This document shows positions 36,108-46,090 of a stretch of DNA of 64,000 nucleotides, in pieces. The notes under the pieces are model-generated. The model saw nothing but the letters and a program-made list of their open reading frames with translations, was not told the origin of the DNA and did no database searches. This DNA comes from an uncultured Pelagibacteraceae bacterium (GTDB lineage Bacteria > Pseudomonadota > Alphaproteobacteria > Pelagibacterales > Pelagibacteraceae), in NCBI GenBank assembly GCA_902587095.1, contig CACIJY010000001.1, positions 62,001 through 126,000 of the forward strand. The letters are read 5' to 3'. The position numbers and the translations under genes are program-made. Positions within the stretch are counted from its first letter, which is position 1. The number at the start of each line of letters is the position of its first letter.

Positions 36108-38183
<2,076 letters not shown>

Positions 38184-38322: not shown

Positions 38323-39213
38323 TTACTTTTTTGGGTGTAAAACAAGCCAATGCATGGTCTGTGGCCTTCCTTCTGACATCATCAAATATTTCTCATCATC
38401 GCTGTACTTATCCAAGATATTAATTTTGAATGGATCTTTTGAAGTATCTCTTAAAATTTCTAGCTTATAATACTTTGATATATTCTTATAAAAATCTTTA
38501 ATAGTTTTTTTGTTACTGATATTAAATGGATGTTCTTCTATTATAAAGGTGCTTTTAGAAAATTCTTTACAGAATTGTTTATTAAATAAATTATACTCGT
38601 TACCTTCAATATCTACTAAAAAAAATAACTTTTTATGTTCTAGATTTTTTAAGTTTTTAATCAATGACAAAAAATTAGCTTCTCCAAATATTCTTAATCT
38701 ATTATAAACATTATTAACTTTGGCATTTTTCTCTAAAATTTTTCTACTTTTTTTATCTATTTCAAAAGCTAACCCTTTTTTAAAATGATTTTTTTTTAAT
38801 AAGCTAATTATGTGATAACCCTCTGCTGCTCCTAAATCTATAATAAAATCAAATTTTTTTTTTTTTGTTAAATTTATTATTTTGTCCTGTATATGTGATT
38901 CATAGGTACCTAAGTATTTCGAGGAAAAATCAATATTTGACCATCCATATTTATTTCCAATTGTTGTACCACGATAAGGGCCATAAAGTATTTTATTTTT
39001 AGCGCTTTTAGAAATTTCTCTTTCTAAATAATATTTTTTTTTGTCTATAAAATTTGATAGGCCAGTTTTTTTAAAATTTTTATTAACAAAATAAAAATAA
39101 ACACCATCAAGTCCATTTGCTTTAAAAATCTTTGAATATTTTATGAATTTTTTTTTTGTTATTGCGATAACTAAAGTAAATAAGACAATTATTAACAAAT
39201 ATTCAAAATACAT
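38323..39213 (-). CDS. FkbM-like SAM-dependent methyltransferase
   Basis: A 296-residue protein with an N-terminal membrane helix (residues 4-19) and a class I methyltransferase domain. The SAM loop FIIDLGAAEGYHI lies near residue 123, the acidic end of the second strand in FEIDKKS near 149, and DIEGNEYNLF near 202 matches the FkbM subfamily pattern in which IDIEG.E is conserved. These enzymes O-methylate sugars and other small groups. It marks the left end of the accessory island, 151 bases from gyrB, and that gap holds no feature I can name. The substrate is unknown. Confidence 0.75.
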   Translation of the reverse strand: MYFEYLLIIVLFTLVIAITKKKFIKYSKIFKANGLDGVYFYFVNKNFKKTGLSNFIDKKKYYLEREISKSAKNKILYGPYRGTTIGNKYGWSNIDFSSKYLGTYESHIQDKIINLTKKKKFDFIIDLGAAEGYHIISLLKKNHFKKGLAFEIDKKSRKILEKNAKVNNVYNRLRIFGEANFLSLIKNLKNLEHKKLFFLVDIEGNEYNLFNKQFCKEFSKSTFIIEEHPFNISNKKTIKDFYKNISKYYKLEILRDTSKDPFKINILDKYSDDEKYLMMSEGRPQTMHWLVLHPKK

Positions 39214-39293: not shown

Positions 39294-39914
39294 ATGGAAG
39301 ATTTGATATCAGTTGTGGTAATGCTTATTTGTGGATATGCCATACGTTATGCCTTAATTTTTTCTGGGCAAATGTGGGCAAAATCTTTTGCACAAACCGT
39401 ATCTTTTTTTATTTTACCTATTATCACATTCATAATAACAAAAACCATTTACGGTAATATTGCTTTGTCATTAGGAATGATCGGTGCTTTATCAATAGTA
39501 AGATTTAGACATCCGGTAAAGAGTGCTCTAGAGCTAATAATTTATTTTGATTTAATAACTATTGGGATAGCTGCAAGTGTTAAAAATAATTATGCAATTG
39601 TTTTAGGAGTATTGACAGTAGTTATTTTAGTTGCGCTTAAAATTGTTAATAATTATTTAAAAGATACCAAAAAAAAATCATTTTATAATATTTCTTTTAA
39701 TGAGGGTATTGAACTAAATCAAATTGAAATAACTGCCTCGAAAAAAATTGAGGAAATTGAAAAAAATAATAATCTCAAATCAATTGTAAGTGATAATGAA
39801 AATAATGATTACATATATAGACTGGCATTTGAAGATAAAGATCAATTAAAAGAATTCAAAAATAAAGTTGAAAGCTTAGATGGTTTAAAAAAAATTGATG
39901 TCAGCTTTATTTAA
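39294..39914 (+). CDS. DUF4956 membrane protein
   Basis: A 206-residue protein with about four membrane helices (residues 4-24, 34-54, 80-94 and 102-118) and a cytoplasmic C-terminal domain resembling a small alpha/beta (ferredoxin-like) fold. The family hallmark GALSIVRFRHPVK lies at 64-76, between helices. DUF4956 proteins have no assigned function but are often encoded beside VTC-domain and CotH-like proteins, as here. The stop overlaps the next gene by 17 bases, so the products are probably made in fixed ratio. Confidence 0.85.
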   Translation: MEDLISVVVMLICGYAIRYALIFSGQMWAKSFAQTVSFFILPIITFIITKTIYGNIALSLGMIGALSIVRFRHPVKSALELIIYFDLITIGIAASVKNNYAIVLGVLTVVILVALKIVNNYLKDTKKKSFYNISFNEGIELNQIEITASKKIEEIEKNNNLKSIVSDNENNDYIYRLAFEDKDQLKEFKNKVESLDGLKKIDVSFI

Positions 39915-42228
39915 ATTATTCATCTGTTTTTTTTTCATATTTAGCACATACAACTTGAACAACGCAGTAAGTAAAGAGCACTTTGACTGTAATAACTATA
40001 ATTCTTTATACACAGAACAAAACAAAGATTACATACCCATAAAAAGTATAGATATTGAGATAAATGAATATAAAAATTGGCAAGTTAACAATTTAAGAAT
40101 ATTAACTAATACTTCATACTTAATACCAGACAAATTTAAAAAAAAATTTAATGCTAATGTAAAAGTAGTTTATCAAAACAAAATAAATTGTAAAATTAAA
40201 GCAAGAGTAAGAACACATGGAGATCTTAAAGATCATATTGTTTATAAAGACGGAAAAGTTTTTCAAAGCCTAGATGTTGATCTAATTGATGGACATGTAA
40301 ATAATATCACAAAATTTAAGCTGTTTCTTAAAAATACAAGAGGTAATGCTGAAGATGAAATATTTATGACTGAATTATTAAGACAATTAAATTTTATTGC
40401 ACCAAGAACACAACTTGTGAAAGTAATAGTAAATGGTGAGAAAAACGAAATGCTTTTTCAAGAAAAATCCTCAAAAGAACTACTTGAGTATAACAAAAGA
40501 AAAGAAGGTCCAATACTAGAGGGGGATGAAAAATATATGATGAAATTTTCGTCAAAAGTAAAAAATAATGATGGGGTGAATTGGTCAGAGATTTTTAGAG
40601 TTTCTGAACTAGGTACGAAAATACAGCTCTCAAAAGTTACTAATTCAAAATGGGCAGTAAAAAGTAACAGCTCAAAAAAAAATGCTTTTAGAGCTCTAGA
40701 TAAATTAAACTTTGCTTATTTAGTTTTTTTAAACAATTTTAAAGATAAGAATAATAATTACTTTTTTTTAGACTATAACCTTGATAATTCAATATTATCA
40801 CAAGGAATAGAAAGAAATCTAAATAGATTAGATATTTTTAACAATATAATTTTAGCAGCAAATGGGAATCACGCACTTTATGTTCATAATAGAAAATTTT
40901 ACTGGAATTCAGAGGAAAATTATTTTGAGCCTATTTATTATGATGGTGAATTTGACCTGAAAAAAACTCAAAATAAACTTAACTATCCGTTAAGTCAAAA
41001 CTATGCTGCTTCTTTAATTAAGTTAAAAAATATAATTTTAAATTTAAAAGTTGATAAACTTCAGGATAATCTTGAAACAAAAAATCTTTTCCTTGATCTG
41101 GATAAAATTCAAGTAAAATTGAACGATTTACTGAGAAATATAAAAGAAATACAAAAATTATTAAAAAAAAAAGATGTGGCTGAAATAGAATATAATAATA
41201 ATAGTTATTTTAATAAAAACTTAAAAAAAAATTATTTAGACAATTTCAAAAATCAAAAAATTAAAGCTAAATTTATACAATTTGAACCTGATCAAAATGT
41301 ATTTAAAGTCTGTAGTGATGATATTTTAATATGTAATGAAAATTTTTATATAGATATAAATAATCAAAGAAAGCTCCTAGAGTCAGAACTAACAATTGAT
41401 GGGAATAATTATGAATACTTAAACCTAAAGAATGATAATGAGGATAAATATAAAAAAATTGTTTTAAATGATGATTATTTTGAAAATGTTAATTTTTATT
41501 TTAATAATGGAGTTGATTACTTCTATGATAAAAAAAATAAAATTTTTAATATTACTCAGAACGAATTGATTGGTAGAAGTTTTTTTCTCTATGGTAAAAT
41601 TAATGATGTCAAAATAAATTATATCGGTAATCAAAATAATTTCAAAAATAAATTGGCAAAGAGAATTGATACGAAAAATCTAACTGGGTGTTTAAATTTT
41701 ATTAAAATAAATTTTAACAAGTCAATTTTGAATTCAAATAACTCAACTTGTGAAGATGGAATTAACATAATTAACAGTACCGGCATTTTAGAAAAAATTA
41801 TTTCTAACAATTCTCTTTATGATGCTATAGATTTAGATTTTTCAGATCTATTAGTCAATAAGGTTGTAGTTACTAATGCATTAAATGATTGTATAGATTT
41901 TTCTTATGGAAAATACGAAATAAAAAAATCTTCACTAGTATCATGCGGAGACAAAGGAGTTTCAGTAGGTGAAAAATCAAGTGCTAATTTTGGAGAAATA
42001 AATCTTGAAATTGCAAAAATAGGAGTTGCTTCTAAAGACTCATCCAACGTTCAAATAGAAAATTCAAAAATTTCCTCAGTTGAGAATTGTTTCTCCAGTT
42101 ACAGAAAAAAACAAGAATTTGATGGTGGGTTTATTAAAGTTCAAAAATCAAGCTGTGTAAATTATTCTAAAAATTACTTTTTTGATAATAACTCTAAAAT
42201 AGAAATAATTGTAAACGAGGAAATTTAG
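39898..42228 (+). CDS. Exported CotH-like protein with C-terminal beta-helix
   Basis: A 776-residue protein from the ATG at 39898 (a TTG one codon earlier is less likely). A signal peptide covers residues 1-25. Residues about 40-400 resemble the CotH kinase-like fold: IKARVRTHGDLKDH near 100 stands where spore-coat CotH has its RGNSS loop, and EPIYYDGEFDL near 344 stands where its Asp-rich metal motif lies. Residues about 610-770 show repeated short beta segments (NDCIDFSYG, GDKGVSVGE, SSNVQIENSKISS) typical of a right-handed parallel beta-helix. CotH relatives can phosphorylate proteins. Homology is remote and catalysis unproven. It lies five bases before the VTC gene. Confidence 0.65.
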   Translation: MSALFKLFICFFFIFSTYNLNNAVSKEHFDCNNYNSLYTEQNKDYIPIKSIDIEINEYKNWQVNNLRILTNTSYLIPDKFKKKFNANVKVVYQNKINCKIKARVRTHGDLKDHIVYKDGKVFQSLDVDLIDGHVNNITKFKLFLKNTRGNAEDEIFMTELLRQLNFIAPRTQLVKVIVNGEKNEMLFQEKSSKELLEYNKRKEGPILEGDEKYMMKFSSKVKNNDGVNWSEIFRVSELGTKIQLSKVTNSKWAVKSNSSKKNAFRALDKLNFAYLVFLNNFKDKNNNYFFLDYNLDNSILSQGIERNLNRLDIFNNIILAANGNHALYVHNRKFYWNSEENYFEPIYYDGEFDLKKTQNKLNYPLSQNYAASLIKLKNIILNLKVDKLQDNLETKNLFLDLDKIQVKLNDLLRNIKEIQKLLKKKDVAEIEYNNNSYFNKNLKKNYLDNFKNQKIKAKFIQFEPDQNVFKVCSDDILICNENFYIDINNQRKLLESELTIDGNNYEYLNLKNDNEDKYKKIVLNDDYFENVNFYFNNGVDYFYDKKNKIFNITQNELIGRSFFLYGKINDVKINYIGNQNNFKNKLAKRIDTKNLTGCLNFIKINFNKSILNSNNSTCEDGINIINSTGILEKIISNNSLYDAIDLDFSDLLVNKVVVTNALNDCIDFSYGKYEIKKSSLVSCGDKGVSVGEKSSANFGEINLEIAKIGVASKDSSNVQIENSKISSVENCFSSYRKKQEFDGGFIKVQKSSCVNYSKNYFFDNNSKIEIIVNEEI

Positions 42229-42233
42229 CTTAG

Positions 42234-42827
42234 ATGACCTACAGAGTTGAAAAAAAATTATTTATTAAAAAAGAAAATTTTTTTGAGTTTAAAAGAAAAC
42301 TTTTAGAAAAAGGTGTAAAAAGACTATTCAAAAACCGCGAAGTTAACAGCCTATATTTTGATAACTCTAGAAAAGATATGTTCCAAGATTCGATTGAAGG
42401 TCTGACACCCAGAAAAAAGATTAGAATTAGAAATTATCCAGATGATAAGAGAGAATTTTTGTTTTTAGAAACCAAGATATCAAGTGTTGAAGGAAGATTT
42501 AAAAAAAATAAAAAAATCAGCAGAGGTACTTTTGAAAATTTTAAAAAGAATGGAATATTTGATGATAGATATGGAATATGCAGACCAATTTTAAATGTTA
42601 AATATGAAAGAGAATACTTTAGGAAGGAAGATGTGAGAATTACTTTAGATTATAATATTATTTACAAACTTCATAATAGTAAAATTATTAAAAAGGATGA
42701 AGAAATCGTTGCTGAACTTAAAACTTCTATAAATAAAAATTTAGACGATTTATTTGAAATGTATCCTTTCCAAGAAATAAGGTTTTCAAAATACTGCAAT
42801 GGAATAAAGCTTTTTTACAATGAATAA
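42234..42827 (+). CDS. VTC-domain (polyphosphate polymerase-fold) protein
   Basis: A 197-residue protein that is one VTC domain, a triphosphate-tunnel fold used for polyphosphate synthesis in yeast Vtc4. Tunnel-lining residues are visible: RVEKKLFI (4-11), SLYFDN (39-44), KKIRIRNY (61-68), FLETK (77-81), VKYEREYF (122-129), VRITLDYN (134-141), VAELKTS (159-165) and FSKYCNGI (184-191). The set of basic residues and the Glu pairs for metal binding looks complete, so the domain is probably active. No SPX or membrane domain is attached; the upstream DUF4956 protein may supply the membrane part. It overlaps the next gene by eight bases. Confidence 0.85.
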   Translation: MTYRVEKKLFIKKENFFEFKRKLLEKGVKRLFKNREVNSLYFDNSRKDMFQDSIEGLTPRKKIRIRNYPDDKREFLFLETKISSVEGRFKKNKKISRGTFENFKKNGIFDDRYGICRPILNVKYEREYFRKEDVRITLDYNIIYKLHNSKIIKKDEEIVAELKTSINKNLDDLFEMYPFQEIRFSKYCNGIKLFYNE

Positions 42828-43803
42828 TATGAATGTCGCTTTAGTCGGGTCTAATTTTGCGTTAAGAGGATATTTACCAGCTATCAAAAATATAAAAAAC
42901 TTGAAGCTAAAAATATTGTGTAGTCGTAACATATTTAAATCACATAAAATATATAATAATCATAAAAAAATTAAACTTGAATATAATTGGAAAAAAGTCT
43001 TTAGAAGTGATATTGACTTAATCATCTTAGCTGTTCCACCAAAAGTACAAATTGAAATATTAAATTATAATTTAAAATTTAAGAAAAAAATAATATTTGA
43101 AAAACCAATATCTAATAATATAAACCTATCCAAAAATATTATAAGAATGATTAAGAGAAAAAAGATTAAATCAGATATTAATTTAACTTTTTTAAATCAC
43201 CAGTTATTCGTTAAAACACGTAATATCATAAAAAAACAAAAGTTAGGCAAAATCTTAAACTTTAAAGTTTTATGGAGTTTTAGAAGTTTTGATTTAGATA
43301 AAAAAATCAAATCATGGAAAACAATTGAAAATCAAGGAGGTGGCATTAAAAATATTTTTTTGACACATGTGTTTTCTTACTGTGAATTTTTTTTTGGAAA
43401 TTGCAAAATAACTAATTATGAATATAAGATAAGTAATTTTAAAGGAATCGATTACAAAAGAAAGATATCTTGTTCCATAAAAAATCAAGATGGGTCAACA
43501 GGTAAGATTAGACTTTTTGCAAAAAAAAAGGGGGTACAAGAGCACAAAATAACTATTAAATTCGAAAAGGGCCAAATTCAGCTATTTACTAAATCTAAAG
43601 ATTGGACTAAGAATTTTGTTTTAAAAATTCATAATGAAATCTCGAAAAAGCGAAAAACTATTAAATCTAAAAATTTATCAAAATTTAAAGATGGTAGGTC
43701 GAATCAAATATTTATAATGTTAAAAAATTTTTTAAAAAAAAAACATCATTCAAATATAGATTATTGTTTAAATGCTGAATACCTAAACAGCACTATAAGA
43801 TAA
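42820..43803 (+). CDS. Gfo/Idh/MocA family oxidoreductase
   Basis: A 327-residue NAD(P)-dependent sugar oxidoreductase-like protein. It opens with a dinucleotide-binding strand MNVALVGSNFALRGYLPAI, in which the usual GxGxxG is degenerate (GSNFALRG). The motif FEKPIS near residue 90 holds the catalytic Lys of the family. A C-terminal alpha/beta domain of the MocA type follows, with QGGGIKNIFLTHVFSY near 170. Members reduce or epimerise sugars. It overlaps the VTC gene by eight bases and lies six bases before the C-methyltransferase gene. The degenerate Gly-rich loop leaves cofactor use open. Confidence 0.75.
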   Translation: MNNMNVALVGSNFALRGYLPAIKNIKNLKLKILCSRNIFKSHKIYNNHKKIKLEYNWKKVFRSDIDLIILAVPPKVQIEILNYNLKFKKKIIFEKPISNNINLSKNIIRMIKRKKIKSDINLTFLNHQLFVKTRNIIKKQKLGKILNFKVLWSFRSFDLDKKIKSWKTIENQGGGIKNIFLTHVFSYCEFFFGNCKITNYEYKISNFKGIDYKRKISCSIKNQDGSTGKIRLFAKKKGVQEHKITIKFEKGQIQLFTKSKDWTKNFVLKIHNEISKKRKTIKSKNLSKFKDGRSNQIFIMLKNFLKKKHHSNIDYCLNAEYLNSTIR

Positions 43804-43808
43804 ATAAA

Positions 43809-45059
43809 ATGGACAAACATAATTTTGCACCTGGAAAAATTACTAAGTGTCAAATTTGTGGATCTAAAAACTTAATAAACATAATGACATTAGGTAATCA
43901 GCCGCTTGCAAATTCACTGGTGAAGAACGCCAACAATGAAAATGAGATTAAAAAATTTCCTATTAATATAATTAGATGTAAAGATTGCACTCTGTTACAA
44001 ATAGATTATGTAGTCAATCAAAATGAAGTTTATCATATGGATTACCCTTATCTCCCAGGAATAACTTTAACAGTTGATAAAGAGCAAAAACAACTATCAG
44101 ATGATCTTTATAAAAAATTAAATTTAAAGACTGACGAGTTAGTTGTTGATATTGGAAGTAATGACGGAAGTTTATTAAGGTATTTTAAGGAAAAAGGTTT
44201 AAATACTTTGGGTGTAGAGCCCACCAACATATCAAAAATTGCGAATAAAAATGGCATAAACACAATTCAATCTTTTTTTAATAAAAATATATCAGAAAAG
44301 ATAATAAAAGAACAAGGTAGAGCCAAATTAATAACCAGCACTAACGTTTTCGCTCATATGTCTACGTTAGGAGATGTGATGGAAGGAATAACAAAATTAT
44401 TAGATAAAGACGGATACTATGCATTTGAAAATCATTATATAATGGAAATATTAAATAAGGTTCAGTACGACACTTTTTACCATGAGCATTTAAGGACATA
44501 TTCGCTCCTATCATTAGTAAAGCTATTTGAAATGTATAATTTGTGTTTATTTGATGCAAAAATTGTAACAAGATATGGCGGAAGTATAAGATGTATTGTG
44601 TCAAAAAAAGAGAGAAATAAAACTCAAAGTTTATTAAATTTACTAGAAAATGAAAAAAATAAATTGGTTGATAATTGTGAAGAAACGTACAGAGTTTTTA
44701 AAGAAAAGGTAGAAAAATCAAAAAAAGATTTGTTGGAAATAATAACAAAACTCAAATCAGACGGAAAAAGTATAGTAGCAAAATCTTGTCCGGCTAGAGC
44801 AGTAGTTTTGCTTAGTTATTGTGGAATCAATAACAGACATGTTAGCTATGTTGCTGAGCAACCTACGTCATTAAAACTAGATTATTATATACCTGGAACA
44901 AATTTAAAAATTGTAGACGATGAAATATTAACAAAAGATGAACCAGATTATATTCTTCTTTTAGCATGGCATTTGAGTGAACCTATAATTCAAAAATGGA
45001 AAAAAAGAGGGTTAAAATCAAAATTCATAATCCCGCTCCCTGAGGTAAGAATTTTATGA
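43809..45059 (+). CDS. Sugar C-methyltransferase (zinc-binding, class I)
   Basis: A 416-residue protein with the three-part layout of nucleotide-sugar C-methyltransferases such as TylC3 and TcaB9. An N-terminal zinc domain has C14, C17, C57 and C60 (CQIC and CKDC). The central SAM domain has VVDIGSNDGSLLRYF from residue 112, and the hallmark EHLRTYSL lies near 220. The C-terminal domain binds nucleotide and has PARAVVLLSYCGI near 332. It would add a methyl group to a keto sugar, making a branched sugar. It overlaps the SDR gene by four bases. Confidence 0.85.
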   Translation: MDKHNFAPGKITKCQICGSKNLINIMTLGNQPLANSLVKNANNENEIKKFPINIIRCKDCTLLQIDYVVNQNEVYHMDYPYLPGITLTVDKEQKQLSDDLYKKLNLKTDELVVDIGSNDGSLLRYFKEKGLNTLGVEPTNISKIANKNGINTIQSFFNKNISEKIIKEQGRAKLITSTNVFAHMSTLGDVMEGITKLLDKDGYYAFENHYIMEILNKVQYDTFYHEHLRTYSLLSLVKLFEMYNLCLFDAKIVTRYGGSIRCIVSKKERNKTQSLLNLLENEKNKLVDNCEETYRVFKEKVEKSKKDLLEIITKLKSDGKSIVAKSCPARAVVLLSYCGINNRHVSYVAEQPTSLKLDYYIPGTNLKIVDDEILTKDEPDYILLLAWHLSEPIIQKWKKRGLKSKFIIPLPEVRIL

Positions 45060-46090
45060 GCGAGAGATATTACTTAGAAAAAGATATTAAAGAAATAGTA
45101 AAAAACTTAAGAAAATATAAAAATAAAATTTATGGAAAAAAATTTTTCATAACCGGTGCTAACGGTTTTTTAGGGAAATATTTTATAAAAGTTATAAATG
45201 AATTGAATAAGCAAACTAATAAAAAAATTAAGGTTATAGCAAACGACATAAAGTTTGATAATTGTGATATTTTTTATGACAAAAATGTAAAAATAATTAA
45301 GAAAGATATAAACAAAATTTACAATTTTAATTATAAATGTGACTATATTTTACATGCAGCAGGAATACCTAGTCCAAAAAATTATTTCAAGAAACCAATT
45401 GAAACAATATTTACAAGCATTACATCAACAAAAAACCTTTTAGAATACTCTGCAAAAAAAAAATCAAAATTTATTTTTTTTAGTAGCAGCGAAATTTATG
45501 GTAATCCAGATAAAAAAAATATCCCTACAAAAGAAACATATAATGGAAATGTTTCTTCTATAGAAGATAGATCTTGTTATGATGAAGGTAAGAGAGTTGG
45601 AGAAACACTATGTTATTTTTATAAAATTAAAAGAGGTGTTGATATATGTATATTTAGACCATTCAATGTATTTGGACCTGGTATGCCTAGAAATGACTAT
45701 AGAGTTTTTCCACGTTTCTTTAGTTCAATAAAAGACAAAAAACCTATCACTATTTTTAAAAATGGTAAACAAACGAGAACATTTTGTTACGTAACTGATG
45801 CTATAACTGCAATGTTTATAGTAACTCTTGTCGGTAAGAATTTTGTCTACAATATTGGTAATAATAAACCTGAATTAAATATGAATAAACTGCATGAAAT
45901 AATGCAGATAGCTCTTAAAAAAAAAATAAAGTCAACAAACATCGGTTATCCTAAAAATTATCCTCAGATAGAGCCTCAAAGAAGATGTCCTGACATATCA
46001 AAACTGCTGAAAGAATTTAATTTTAGAAGTAAGGTTAATATAAAAGAAGCAATTGTCAGATTTTATTATTGGACATCAAAATACTACTAA
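45056..46090 (+). CDS. NAD-dependent nucleotide-sugar epimerase/dehydratase (SDR)
   Basis: A 344-residue extended SDR enzyme. The Rossmann loop ITGANGFLGKYF lies at residues 32-43, GIPSPKNYFKKPIETI near 102, and the catalytic Tyr-x3-Lys is YDEGK near 174 with the preceding SSSEIYGN. The YDEGKRVGET pattern is closest to UDP-glucuronate decarboxylase (UXS) and UDP-sugar dehydratase relatives. It also has RPFNVFGPGMP and a C-terminal RCPDISK. The N terminus carries about 25 extra residues. The product sugar is not certain. It converges on the TIM-barrel gene with a four-base overlap. Confidence 0.85.
   Translation: MSERYYLEKDIKEIVKNLRKYKNKIYGKKFFITGANGFLGKYFIKVINELNKQTNKKIKVIANDIKFDNCDIFYDKNVKIIKKDINKIYNFNYKCDYILHAAGIPSPKNYFKKPIETIFTSITSTKNLLEYSAKKKSKFIFFSSSEIYGNPDKKNIPTKETYNGNVSSIEDRSCYDEGKRVGETLCYFYKIKRGVDICIFRPFNVFGPGMPRNDYRVFPRFFSSIKDKKPITIFKNGKQTRTFCYVTDAITAMFIVTLVGKNFVYNIGNNKPELNMNKLHEIMQIALKKKIKSTNIGYPKNYPQIEPQRRCPDISKLLKEFNFRSKVNIKEAIVRFYYWTSKYY

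Follow-up and report, generated by a model that had tools for sequence, protein, structure and literature searches.

Positions 39,294–42,827 of a 64,000-nt stretch of contig CACIJY010000001.1 (assembly GCA_902587095.1, from an uncultured Pelagibacteraceae bacterium), which is called the window throughout, encode in succession a DUF4956 membrane protein, an exported CotH-fold protein with a C-terminal beta-helix and a VTC (triphosphate-tunnel) protein. An earlier note on this DNA had proposed the three genes as an undescribed envelope system linked to polyphosphate or another phosphoryl product. Our analyses place the window triad among the copies of a widespread envelope module that occurs in many phyla and consists of a VTC enzyme, a DUF4956 protein and an exported CotH-fold protein. 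The source genome comprises 871 kb, is 69% complete and has a low guanine-plus-cytosine content.

Organization of the locus

The DUF4956 gene (39294..39914, + strand) encodes 206 amino acids and matches Pfam PF16316 with an E-value of 2.5e-10 (40.8 bits, above the curated cut-off of 30.6). It is followed by the gene of the exported CotH-fold protein (39898..42228, +, from its ATG start), assigned by family profile and structural model, and by the VTC gene (42234..42827, +), whose product of 197 amino acids lacks a membrane segment and matches PF09359 at 2.3e-24. The list of open reading frames (ORFs) starts the CotH-fold gene at a TTG at 39895, the following codon (39898) being ATG; from this ATG the gene overlaps by 17 bases with the DUF4956 gene, whose stop lies at 39914. 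A gap of five bases (42229–42233) separates the CotH-fold and VTC genes, and the VTC gene shares eight bases (42820–42827) with the next gene, which encodes a Gfo/Idh/MocA oxidoreductase. Hence the coordinates, the 17-base overlap and the 5-base gap reported in the earlier note are all borne out by the ORF list and the sequence, as is the overlap by which the VTC gene runs into sugar enzymes. Judged by gene family, the closest named relatives of the window triad belong to the Pelagibacteraceae (DUF4956 scan and tree).

Conservation and distribution of the triad

Among 197 genomes of the order Pelagibacterales, VTC was found in 21, DUF4956 in 25 and both in 20, with one genome holding VTC only and five DUF4956 only. 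This co-occurrence (Fisher p 9e-22, uncorrected for kinship) argues that the adjacency of the two genes is not due to chance. The match in the sole VTC-only genome sits on a 3.8-kb contig, and three of the five DUF4956-only matches begin less than 300 bases from a contig start. Eighteen of the 21 VTC-positive genomes supplied 20 regions for reading; CotH was present in 20/20, VTC in 20/20 and DUF4956 in 19/20, the region that lacks it (L028) being cut by a contig end. A survey of 299 genomes at the level of the phylum yielded seven with VTC above the cut-off, all seven with DUF4956, and at each of the nine above-cut-off VTC places DUF4956 lay on the same strand at most 4 kb away; one further genome had DUF4956 only, and one had a sub-threshold VTC match without DUF4956. 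Among 14 control genomes, VTC and DUF4956 both occurred in the same three.

Beyond these lineages, one genome per species was scanned for DUF4956, and the 80 best of 579 loci bearing the motif [VI]GALSI[VI]RF, a non-random sample, were analysed. VTC accompanied DUF4956 in 72 of them, CotH in 66 and both in 62, and in all 62 loci with the complete triad the genes lay on one strand within 4 kb, so that the proposal of a conserved unit withstands the survey of adjacency. The loci include those of Pelagibacteraceae, Prochlorococcus single cells, Bacillota, Bacteroidota, Verrucomicrobiota, Elusimicrobiota, Campylobacterota and a Micrarchaeota bin. In the remaining 18 loci a partner was missing at a threshold of E 1e-5; at least five of these loci lie at a contig end (L051, L052, L055, L080 and L092), and L080 and L117 show a weaker CotH match below that threshold. 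CotH was called with an iterated hidden Markov model, the weakest matches being counted without individual inspection.

Among the 100 loci read for gene order, 81 hold all three genes, and five single-strand arrangements cover 79 of these: VTC-DUF-CotH (33), DUF-CotH-VTC (28, the order of the window), CotH-VTC-DUF (12), CotH-DUF-VTC (5) and DUF-VTC-CotH (1). Of the other two, one has its genes on both strands and one includes an additional copy. Since gene order shuffles while the neighbourhood stays, the arrangement suggests that the genes function jointly and are not together merely by descent.

The VTC protein

Polymerases of the VTC type are chiefly known from eukaryotes. The window protein scores 86.7 bits against PF09359 (cut-off 23), the domain covering residues 4–195, and the profile of its family finds yeast Vtc4 (3g3q) as its best match in the PDB at 9.6e-15, with all eight solved relatives being Vtc proteins. 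Fifteen tunnel residues of Vtc4 have identical counterparts in the window (Vtc4 numbering in brackets): K8 (K200), R64 (R264), R66 (R266), Y68 (Y268), E79 (E279), K81 (K281), K90 (K294), Y124 (Y359), R126 (R361), R135 (R373), D139 (D377), E161 (E426), K163 (K428), S185 (S457) and K186 (K458). All 15 are identical in 92/92 full rows of the alignment, one further row being incomplete. They include K200, R264, R266, K281, R361, R373, E426 and K458, which we take to be the basic tunnel residues and the metal Glu of Vtc4; all eight are found in the window and in 92/92 rows, as the proposal of a Vtc4-like tunnel had called for. R264, R266 and E426 are named, in the excerpts of the yeast study, as residues mutated to impair or inactivate Vtc4 (PMC9911596).

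The 15 identities across 92/92 full rows make a polyphosphate-type chemistry likely for this protein. No hydrophobic membrane stretch occurs in the five chains checked, in agreement with the intracellular position proposed for it, and SPX and membrane domains are absent from the 197-residue chain. In comparison with the yeast complex (Vtc1/Vtc3/Vtc4), therefore, the polymerase family and the 15 tunnel residues are shared and a separate membrane partner is conceivable, whereas the window chain carries neither SPX nor membrane segment and its candidate partner, the DUF4956 protein, is MgtC-like. On its sequence we file it as a VTC-domain protein and not as a Vtc4 orthologue.

The DUF4956 membrane protein

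An AlphaFold2 model of the DUF4956 protein (47 sequences) reached a predicted local distance difference test score (pLDDT) of 88.7, with lower confidence around the GALSIVRFR core. It has an MgtC-like membrane domain with helices at residues 2–23, 32–51, 56–72, 78–96 and 98–126, so that the previous description as a four-helix membrane protein is about right, the model having five helices in the membrane region. A fold search of the model adds a C-terminal ACT/AsnC-like domain at about residues 142–204 (beta-alpha-beta-beta-alpha-beta; Z 7–8, a common fold). The structures matched by the model cover mainly this domain and are uninformative for the membrane part, and a search of the PDB with the DUF4956 profile gave nothing usable.

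The invariant core GALSIVRFR (39483..39509, +; residues 64–72) contains the basic residues R70 and R72. G64, A65, L66, S67, R70, F71 and R72 are identical in 100/100 DUF4956 rows, and position 76, a Lys in the window, is K or R in 100/100. It is tempting to speculate that R70, R72 and K76 are positioned in a pore; in yeast VTC, a basic channel takes polyphosphate from the enzyme, according to the excerpts of PMC9911596.

MgtC is the second commonest Pfam match of the DUF4956 family, reached by 35 of 47 members at E ≤10 (best 2.1e-6), although the window protein itself is unmatched by the MgtC model at E 10. An hhalign comparison of the two families gave 93.6% over 123 columns (reversed control 0.3%), with an MgtC alignment whose frames were picked by an MgtC-like motif, which kept 10 of 28 rows and leans to clear MgtC. 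The ACT domain also occurs in MgtC. The resemblance to the MgtC/SapB family thus concerns the membrane-domain profile and the ACT-like C-terminal domain; the window protein differs by its lack of an MgtC match, its invariant GALSIVRFR core and its genetic link to VTC and CotH. From these comparisons we file it as a probable relative of MgtC, not as a member.

The exported CotH-fold protein

Residue numbers of this protein count from the TTG at 39895. Taken alone, it is matched by neither Pfam nor NCBIfam at E 0.1, and phmmer searches of the single window proteins against the PDB gave nothing at E 1, whereas family profiles did match: the CotH family profile recognizes Bacillus cereus CotH (5jd9) at 5.6e-28, and Pfam CotH was reached by 9/22 relatives. 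The predicted model (mean pLDDT 87.1) contains a CotH-fold domain at residues 48–427 (40036..41175, +; 5jd9 with Z 18.9, root-mean-square deviation 4.6 and 304 aligned residues; 5jda with a Foldseek E-value of 2.1e-9) and a right-handed beta-helix at residues 514–777 (41434..42225, +; fold search Z 16–20) that resembles polygalacturonases, the alginate epimerases AlgG/AlgE4 and tailspikes. Profile and fold matches thus confirm a CotH-like protein with a C-terminal beta-helix, and the hydrophobic N-terminus found in 21/22 aligned members agrees with the export or anchoring supposed for it. The beta-helix contains conserved acidic residues (D621, D643, D646, D648, D665, D668, D686, paired with K687, and E693).

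According to the excerpts of PMC7821199, CotH of Bacillus subtilis needs Asp228 and Asp251, and replacement of Asp228 by Gln inactivates it. The window protein retains the equivalent of Asp251 as Asp350 (40942..40944, +; 21/22 aligned rows, 37/38 beta-helix-type rows), and next to where the catalytic Asp would stand it carries His326 (40870..40872, +; 20/22 and 36/38). For the comparison of active sites, 78 of 88 rows cover the site and ten were dropped, and the 38 rows with a [DE]K.hS.G[ED] motif were taken as the beta-helix type against 40 others, with the same Asp patterns for both classes. The conserved His occurs in 36/38 beta-helix-type rows versus 3/40 others; the loose pattern xD[STGA], ahead of the HN Asn, in 3/38 (L040, L041 and L044) versus 37/40; and the strict pattern NxD[SG] in 0/38 versus 25/40. 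Some Asp lies within that stretch in 24/38 beta-helix-type rows. Of the three rows with the His and no beta-helix motif, L055 and L092 are cut by a contig end and the third is L067; since L055 belongs to an Actinomycetota bin, the His cannot be called an exclusively diderm feature.

Ten changes are required to place the beta-helix type on the DUF4956 tree, where its members fall in separate parts, all of them in diderm phyla, some diderm loci being without it; L067, L072, L092 and L113 are diderm-phylum loci scored as having no beta-helix. Because the type is scattered over the tree, His and beta-helix are associated in more than one clade. The protein thus resembles the Bacillus spore-coat kinase (5jd9, 5jda) in fold and in its Asp251-type residue and departs from it in the missing Asp228 equivalent, the conserved His and the beta-helix fusion. 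Since that Asp is absent and a His marks the beta-helix-type rows, the residues do not allow the protein to be filed under the CotH kinases; it might nonetheless act as they do, or its chemistry may be altered. The kinase action that the earlier note had entertained is therefore doubtful here.

Neighbouring genes and copies in other genomes

Downstream of the triad lie genes assigned by Pfam to the Gfo/Idh/MocA oxidoreductase (42820–43803, +), a C-methyltransferase (43809–45059, +) and a nucleoside diphosphate (NDP)-sugar epimerase (45056–46090, +), which are perhaps co-transcribed with it (42820..46090). In the 20 related regions, neither the window oxidoreductase nor the C-methyltransferase was the best match of any ORF of at least 90 codons (phmmer, E 1e-3), and at the same threshold an epimerase best match occurred once in each of four regions, and at least one best match to glycosyltransferase family 2 (GT2) in seven. 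A Pfam scan of 73 of the 74 neighbours in these regions found glycosyltransferase 2 most frequently, in four, among the 25 of 111 families listed. The sugar enzymes were accordingly rejected as part of the system for lack of oxidoreductase and C-methyltransferase best matches, and the linkage, which had been put forward as a feature of the cassette, looks local. A constant fourth gene was likewise rejected, no neighbour cluster (blastp 1e-8) occurring in more than 21 of the 100 loci; the corresponding Pfam scan covered 136 of 252 neighbours, with 25 of 174 families listed. Upstream, a gene for an FkbM-like methyltransferase (38323–39213, −), with only weak family matches, lies between gyrB (36108–38171) and the triad.

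Pelagibacterales copies of the triad occupy at least four places in the DUF4956 tree (the window group, L030/L040, the L031 group and L027/L029) and stand in differing surroundings, a pattern suggesting that variable regions acquired the triad repeatedly.

Several individual copies show features of their own. A second Pelagibacterales form (L031, L033, L035 and L090) lies among ilvBHC-, leuA- and mreB-like genes, not sugar genes, and genome G044 of this order holds three different copies (L036, L045 and L046) in differing surroundings. In L027 and L029 a gene of 340–349 codons stands between DUF4956 and CotH. DUF4956 genes on three Prochlorococcus single-cell contigs (L052, L053 and L054; whole triad in L053 and L054) are nested among those of Pelagibacterales, reflecting either horizontal transfer or co-sorted SAR11 DNA.

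Discussion

The triad is not without precedent, and the description of it as undescribed cannot be maintained. In the excerpts of a 2020 study the same trio adjoins pelDEADAFG, to which it is described as accessory, in species of streptococci and clostridia, and a variant occurs in bifidobacteria (PMC7112168); a 2025 paper on Streptococcus intermedius describes the membrane protein as an MgtC transmembrane part plus ACT and states that the genes were not seen in synteny away from Pel (PMC12345266). Already in 2010, VTC, CotH and a glycosyltransferase were noted together in Clostridium perfringens beside genes annotated as 'tubulin' (PMC2879425), which, from their size, may be DUF4956 genes. 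Among the matches listed from the open-licence literature, the triad is not described in SAR11 or other Gram-negatives. The Pel accessory genes cotH-PPP-DUF4956 (SIR_1594-1593-1592) share with the window the same three contiguous families, with an MgtC-plus-ACT membrane protein, VTC as polyphosphate polymerase and a secreted CotH. The window differs in that its genome and 20 relatives lack PelG, its CotH-fold protein is fused to a beta-helix where the Pel CotH is fused to FN3, the catalytic Asp is missing and the order is DUF-CotH-VTC.

Our survey contradicts the published restriction to Pel. PelF-like neighbours, judged by a glycosyltransferase family 4 cluster within 7 kb and so named from their look and from DUF3492 in two neighbours, accompany 4 of the 80 DUF4956 loci (L059, L070, L105 and L106); DUF3492 is presumably linked to PelF. 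PelG was found in 0/21 VTC-positive Pelagibacterales genomes, including the 69% complete source genome, by a search that was positive in 1 of 14 controls. The triad is therefore not restricted to Pel loci.

As to what the triad does, we tentatively favour a model in which polyphosphate would be made in the cytosol at a membrane partner, this synthesis being coupled to the action of an exported enzyme on an envelope polymer; the model accounts for each of the three proteins. The VTC protein, docked on DUF4956 at the inner face of the membrane, would polymerize the terminal phosphate of adenosine triphosphate (ATP) into polyphosphate; DUF4956 would sense a ligand through its ACT-like domain and, in the role of the membrane part of yeast VTC, would pass polyphosphate across the membrane or couple the reaction to the other side, where the exported CotH-fold protein would use or receive phosphate and modify a surface glycan or protein. 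The residues give good support to the synthesis and the topology to the location, and it is by linkage alone that coupling and acceptor are indicated. Because in most diderm copies of the module, the window triad among them, CotH is fused to a beta-helix like those of polysaccharide enzymes, with His replacing the catalytic Asp, the acceptor would most likely be an envelope polysaccharide. Such a glycan link is supported by the beta-helix fold and by the Pel phenotypes published, in the excerpts, for the DUF4956-type (SIR_1592) and CotH (SIR_1594) genes of S. intermedius, whose deletion altered Pel level and aggregation (PMC12345266). A purple acid phosphatase-like gene beside six Paenibacillaceae loci (L071, L077, L078, L081, L104 and L116; cluster, with Pfam on four neighbours) lends the model as a whole weak support. 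A more specific version, which we deem unlikely, holds that polyphosphate extruded by VTC and DUF4956 is the phosphate donor for surface phosphorylation outside the cytosol, without ATP, and that the diderm CotH-fold proteins, with their Asp-to-His swap and a glycan-binding beta-helix, form a new kind of polysaccharide phosphotransferase.

Several observations weigh against polyphosphate synthesis coupled to envelope modification. The source genome also carries PPK1, so the unusual route to polyphosphate suggested by the earlier note would not be its only one. PPK1 occurs in 7/21 VTC-positive versus 97/176 other genomes of the order (p 0.07, uncorrected for kinship), and PPK2 in 0/21 VTC-positive ones; VTC as a replacement of PPK1 was rejected, given PPK1 in the source genome and in 7/21 VTC-positive genomes at this p value. 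CotH was not found in L057, L060, L084, L086, L096 and L122, although each flank of these loci exceeds 5 kb, and L082 shows neither VTC nor CotH beside DUF4956. In the exported protein, the catalytic Asp228 is replaced by N325-H326-A327, with no Asp motif by either pattern, and the acidic residues of the beta-helix would repel polyphosphate unless bridged by metals. The excerpts on S. intermedius, moreover, report that deletion of DUF4956 raised Pel and that of CotH lowered it, and give no such effect for VTC (SIR_1593) (PMC12345266). The three deletions thus do not phenocopy one another, which counts against a simple donor–acceptor chain. Finally, the tunnel entrance of the bacterial proteins reads R-x-E-x-K (E6 in 92/92 full rows) where Vtc4 has R-Q-T-T-K, a further departure from yeast, and hydrolysis by the VTC protein is possible.

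The opposite Pel effects speak for a rival explanation, a regulatory module, in which VTC would make a small cytosolic polyphosphate or phosphoryl signal, DUF4956 would sense it as an ACT-bearing, MgtC-like regulator, and CotH would phosphorylate envelope proteins that set polysaccharide output, no polymer crossing the membrane. The kinship with MgtC and the ACT-like domain agree with this, as do a response-regulator-like cluster near 21 of the 100 loci and Response_reg in 9 of the 136 scanned neighbours; the authors of the Pel study themselves propose regulation by phosphorylation, according to its excerpts (PMC7112168). Against it, a fully conserved polymerase tunnel exceeds the needs of a sensor, the catalytic Asp motif is missing from the beta-helix form, and CotH lies outside the cytosol, where ATP is not known to occur. 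We consider this explanation doubtful.

The R-x-E-x-K entrance also keeps one Glu of ExExK, the motif of triphosphatases, and together with the missing SPX and membrane parts it might suggest that the VTC protein is a triphosphatase or another CYTH hydrolase, the triad then handling nucleotide or polyphosphate turnover; with 15/15 Vtc4-like tunnel residues present and 8/8 solved profile relatives being Vtc proteins (Vtc4 best, at 9.6e-15), we judge this decidedly unlikely. Distinctly improbable, too, is a CotH part reduced to a pseudokinase scaffold, with the beta-helix doing the work (as a glycan lyase, epimerase, hydrolase or adhesin) and polyphosphate as unrelated storage: the near absence of Asp motifs (strict 0/38, loose 3/38), acidic beta-helix residues whose conservation roughly equals that of the best-kept CotH positions and the polygalacturonase- and AlgG/AlgE4-like fold would suit it, whereas the retention of Asp350, Asn332 and Glu190, along with a new His that is almost invariant, would be unusual for a dead enzyme, and the linkage to VTC and DUF4956 is left unexplained.

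If polyphosphate synthesis is indeed coupled to the exported enzyme, polyphosphate would be linked to the building of the envelope by a bacterial module that combines a Vtc4 tunnel with a membrane partner and an exported enzyme of CotH fold. The triad also bears on the source of ATP for phosphorylation by CotH in spores, an open question in the excerpts of PMC7821199. By correcting the statement, in the excerpts of PMC12345266, that the genes are not syntenic outside Pel, the survey means that the module can be studied without Pel, and the loss of the Asp motif with gain of a His that accompanies the beta-helix fusion offers a sharp target for mutants.

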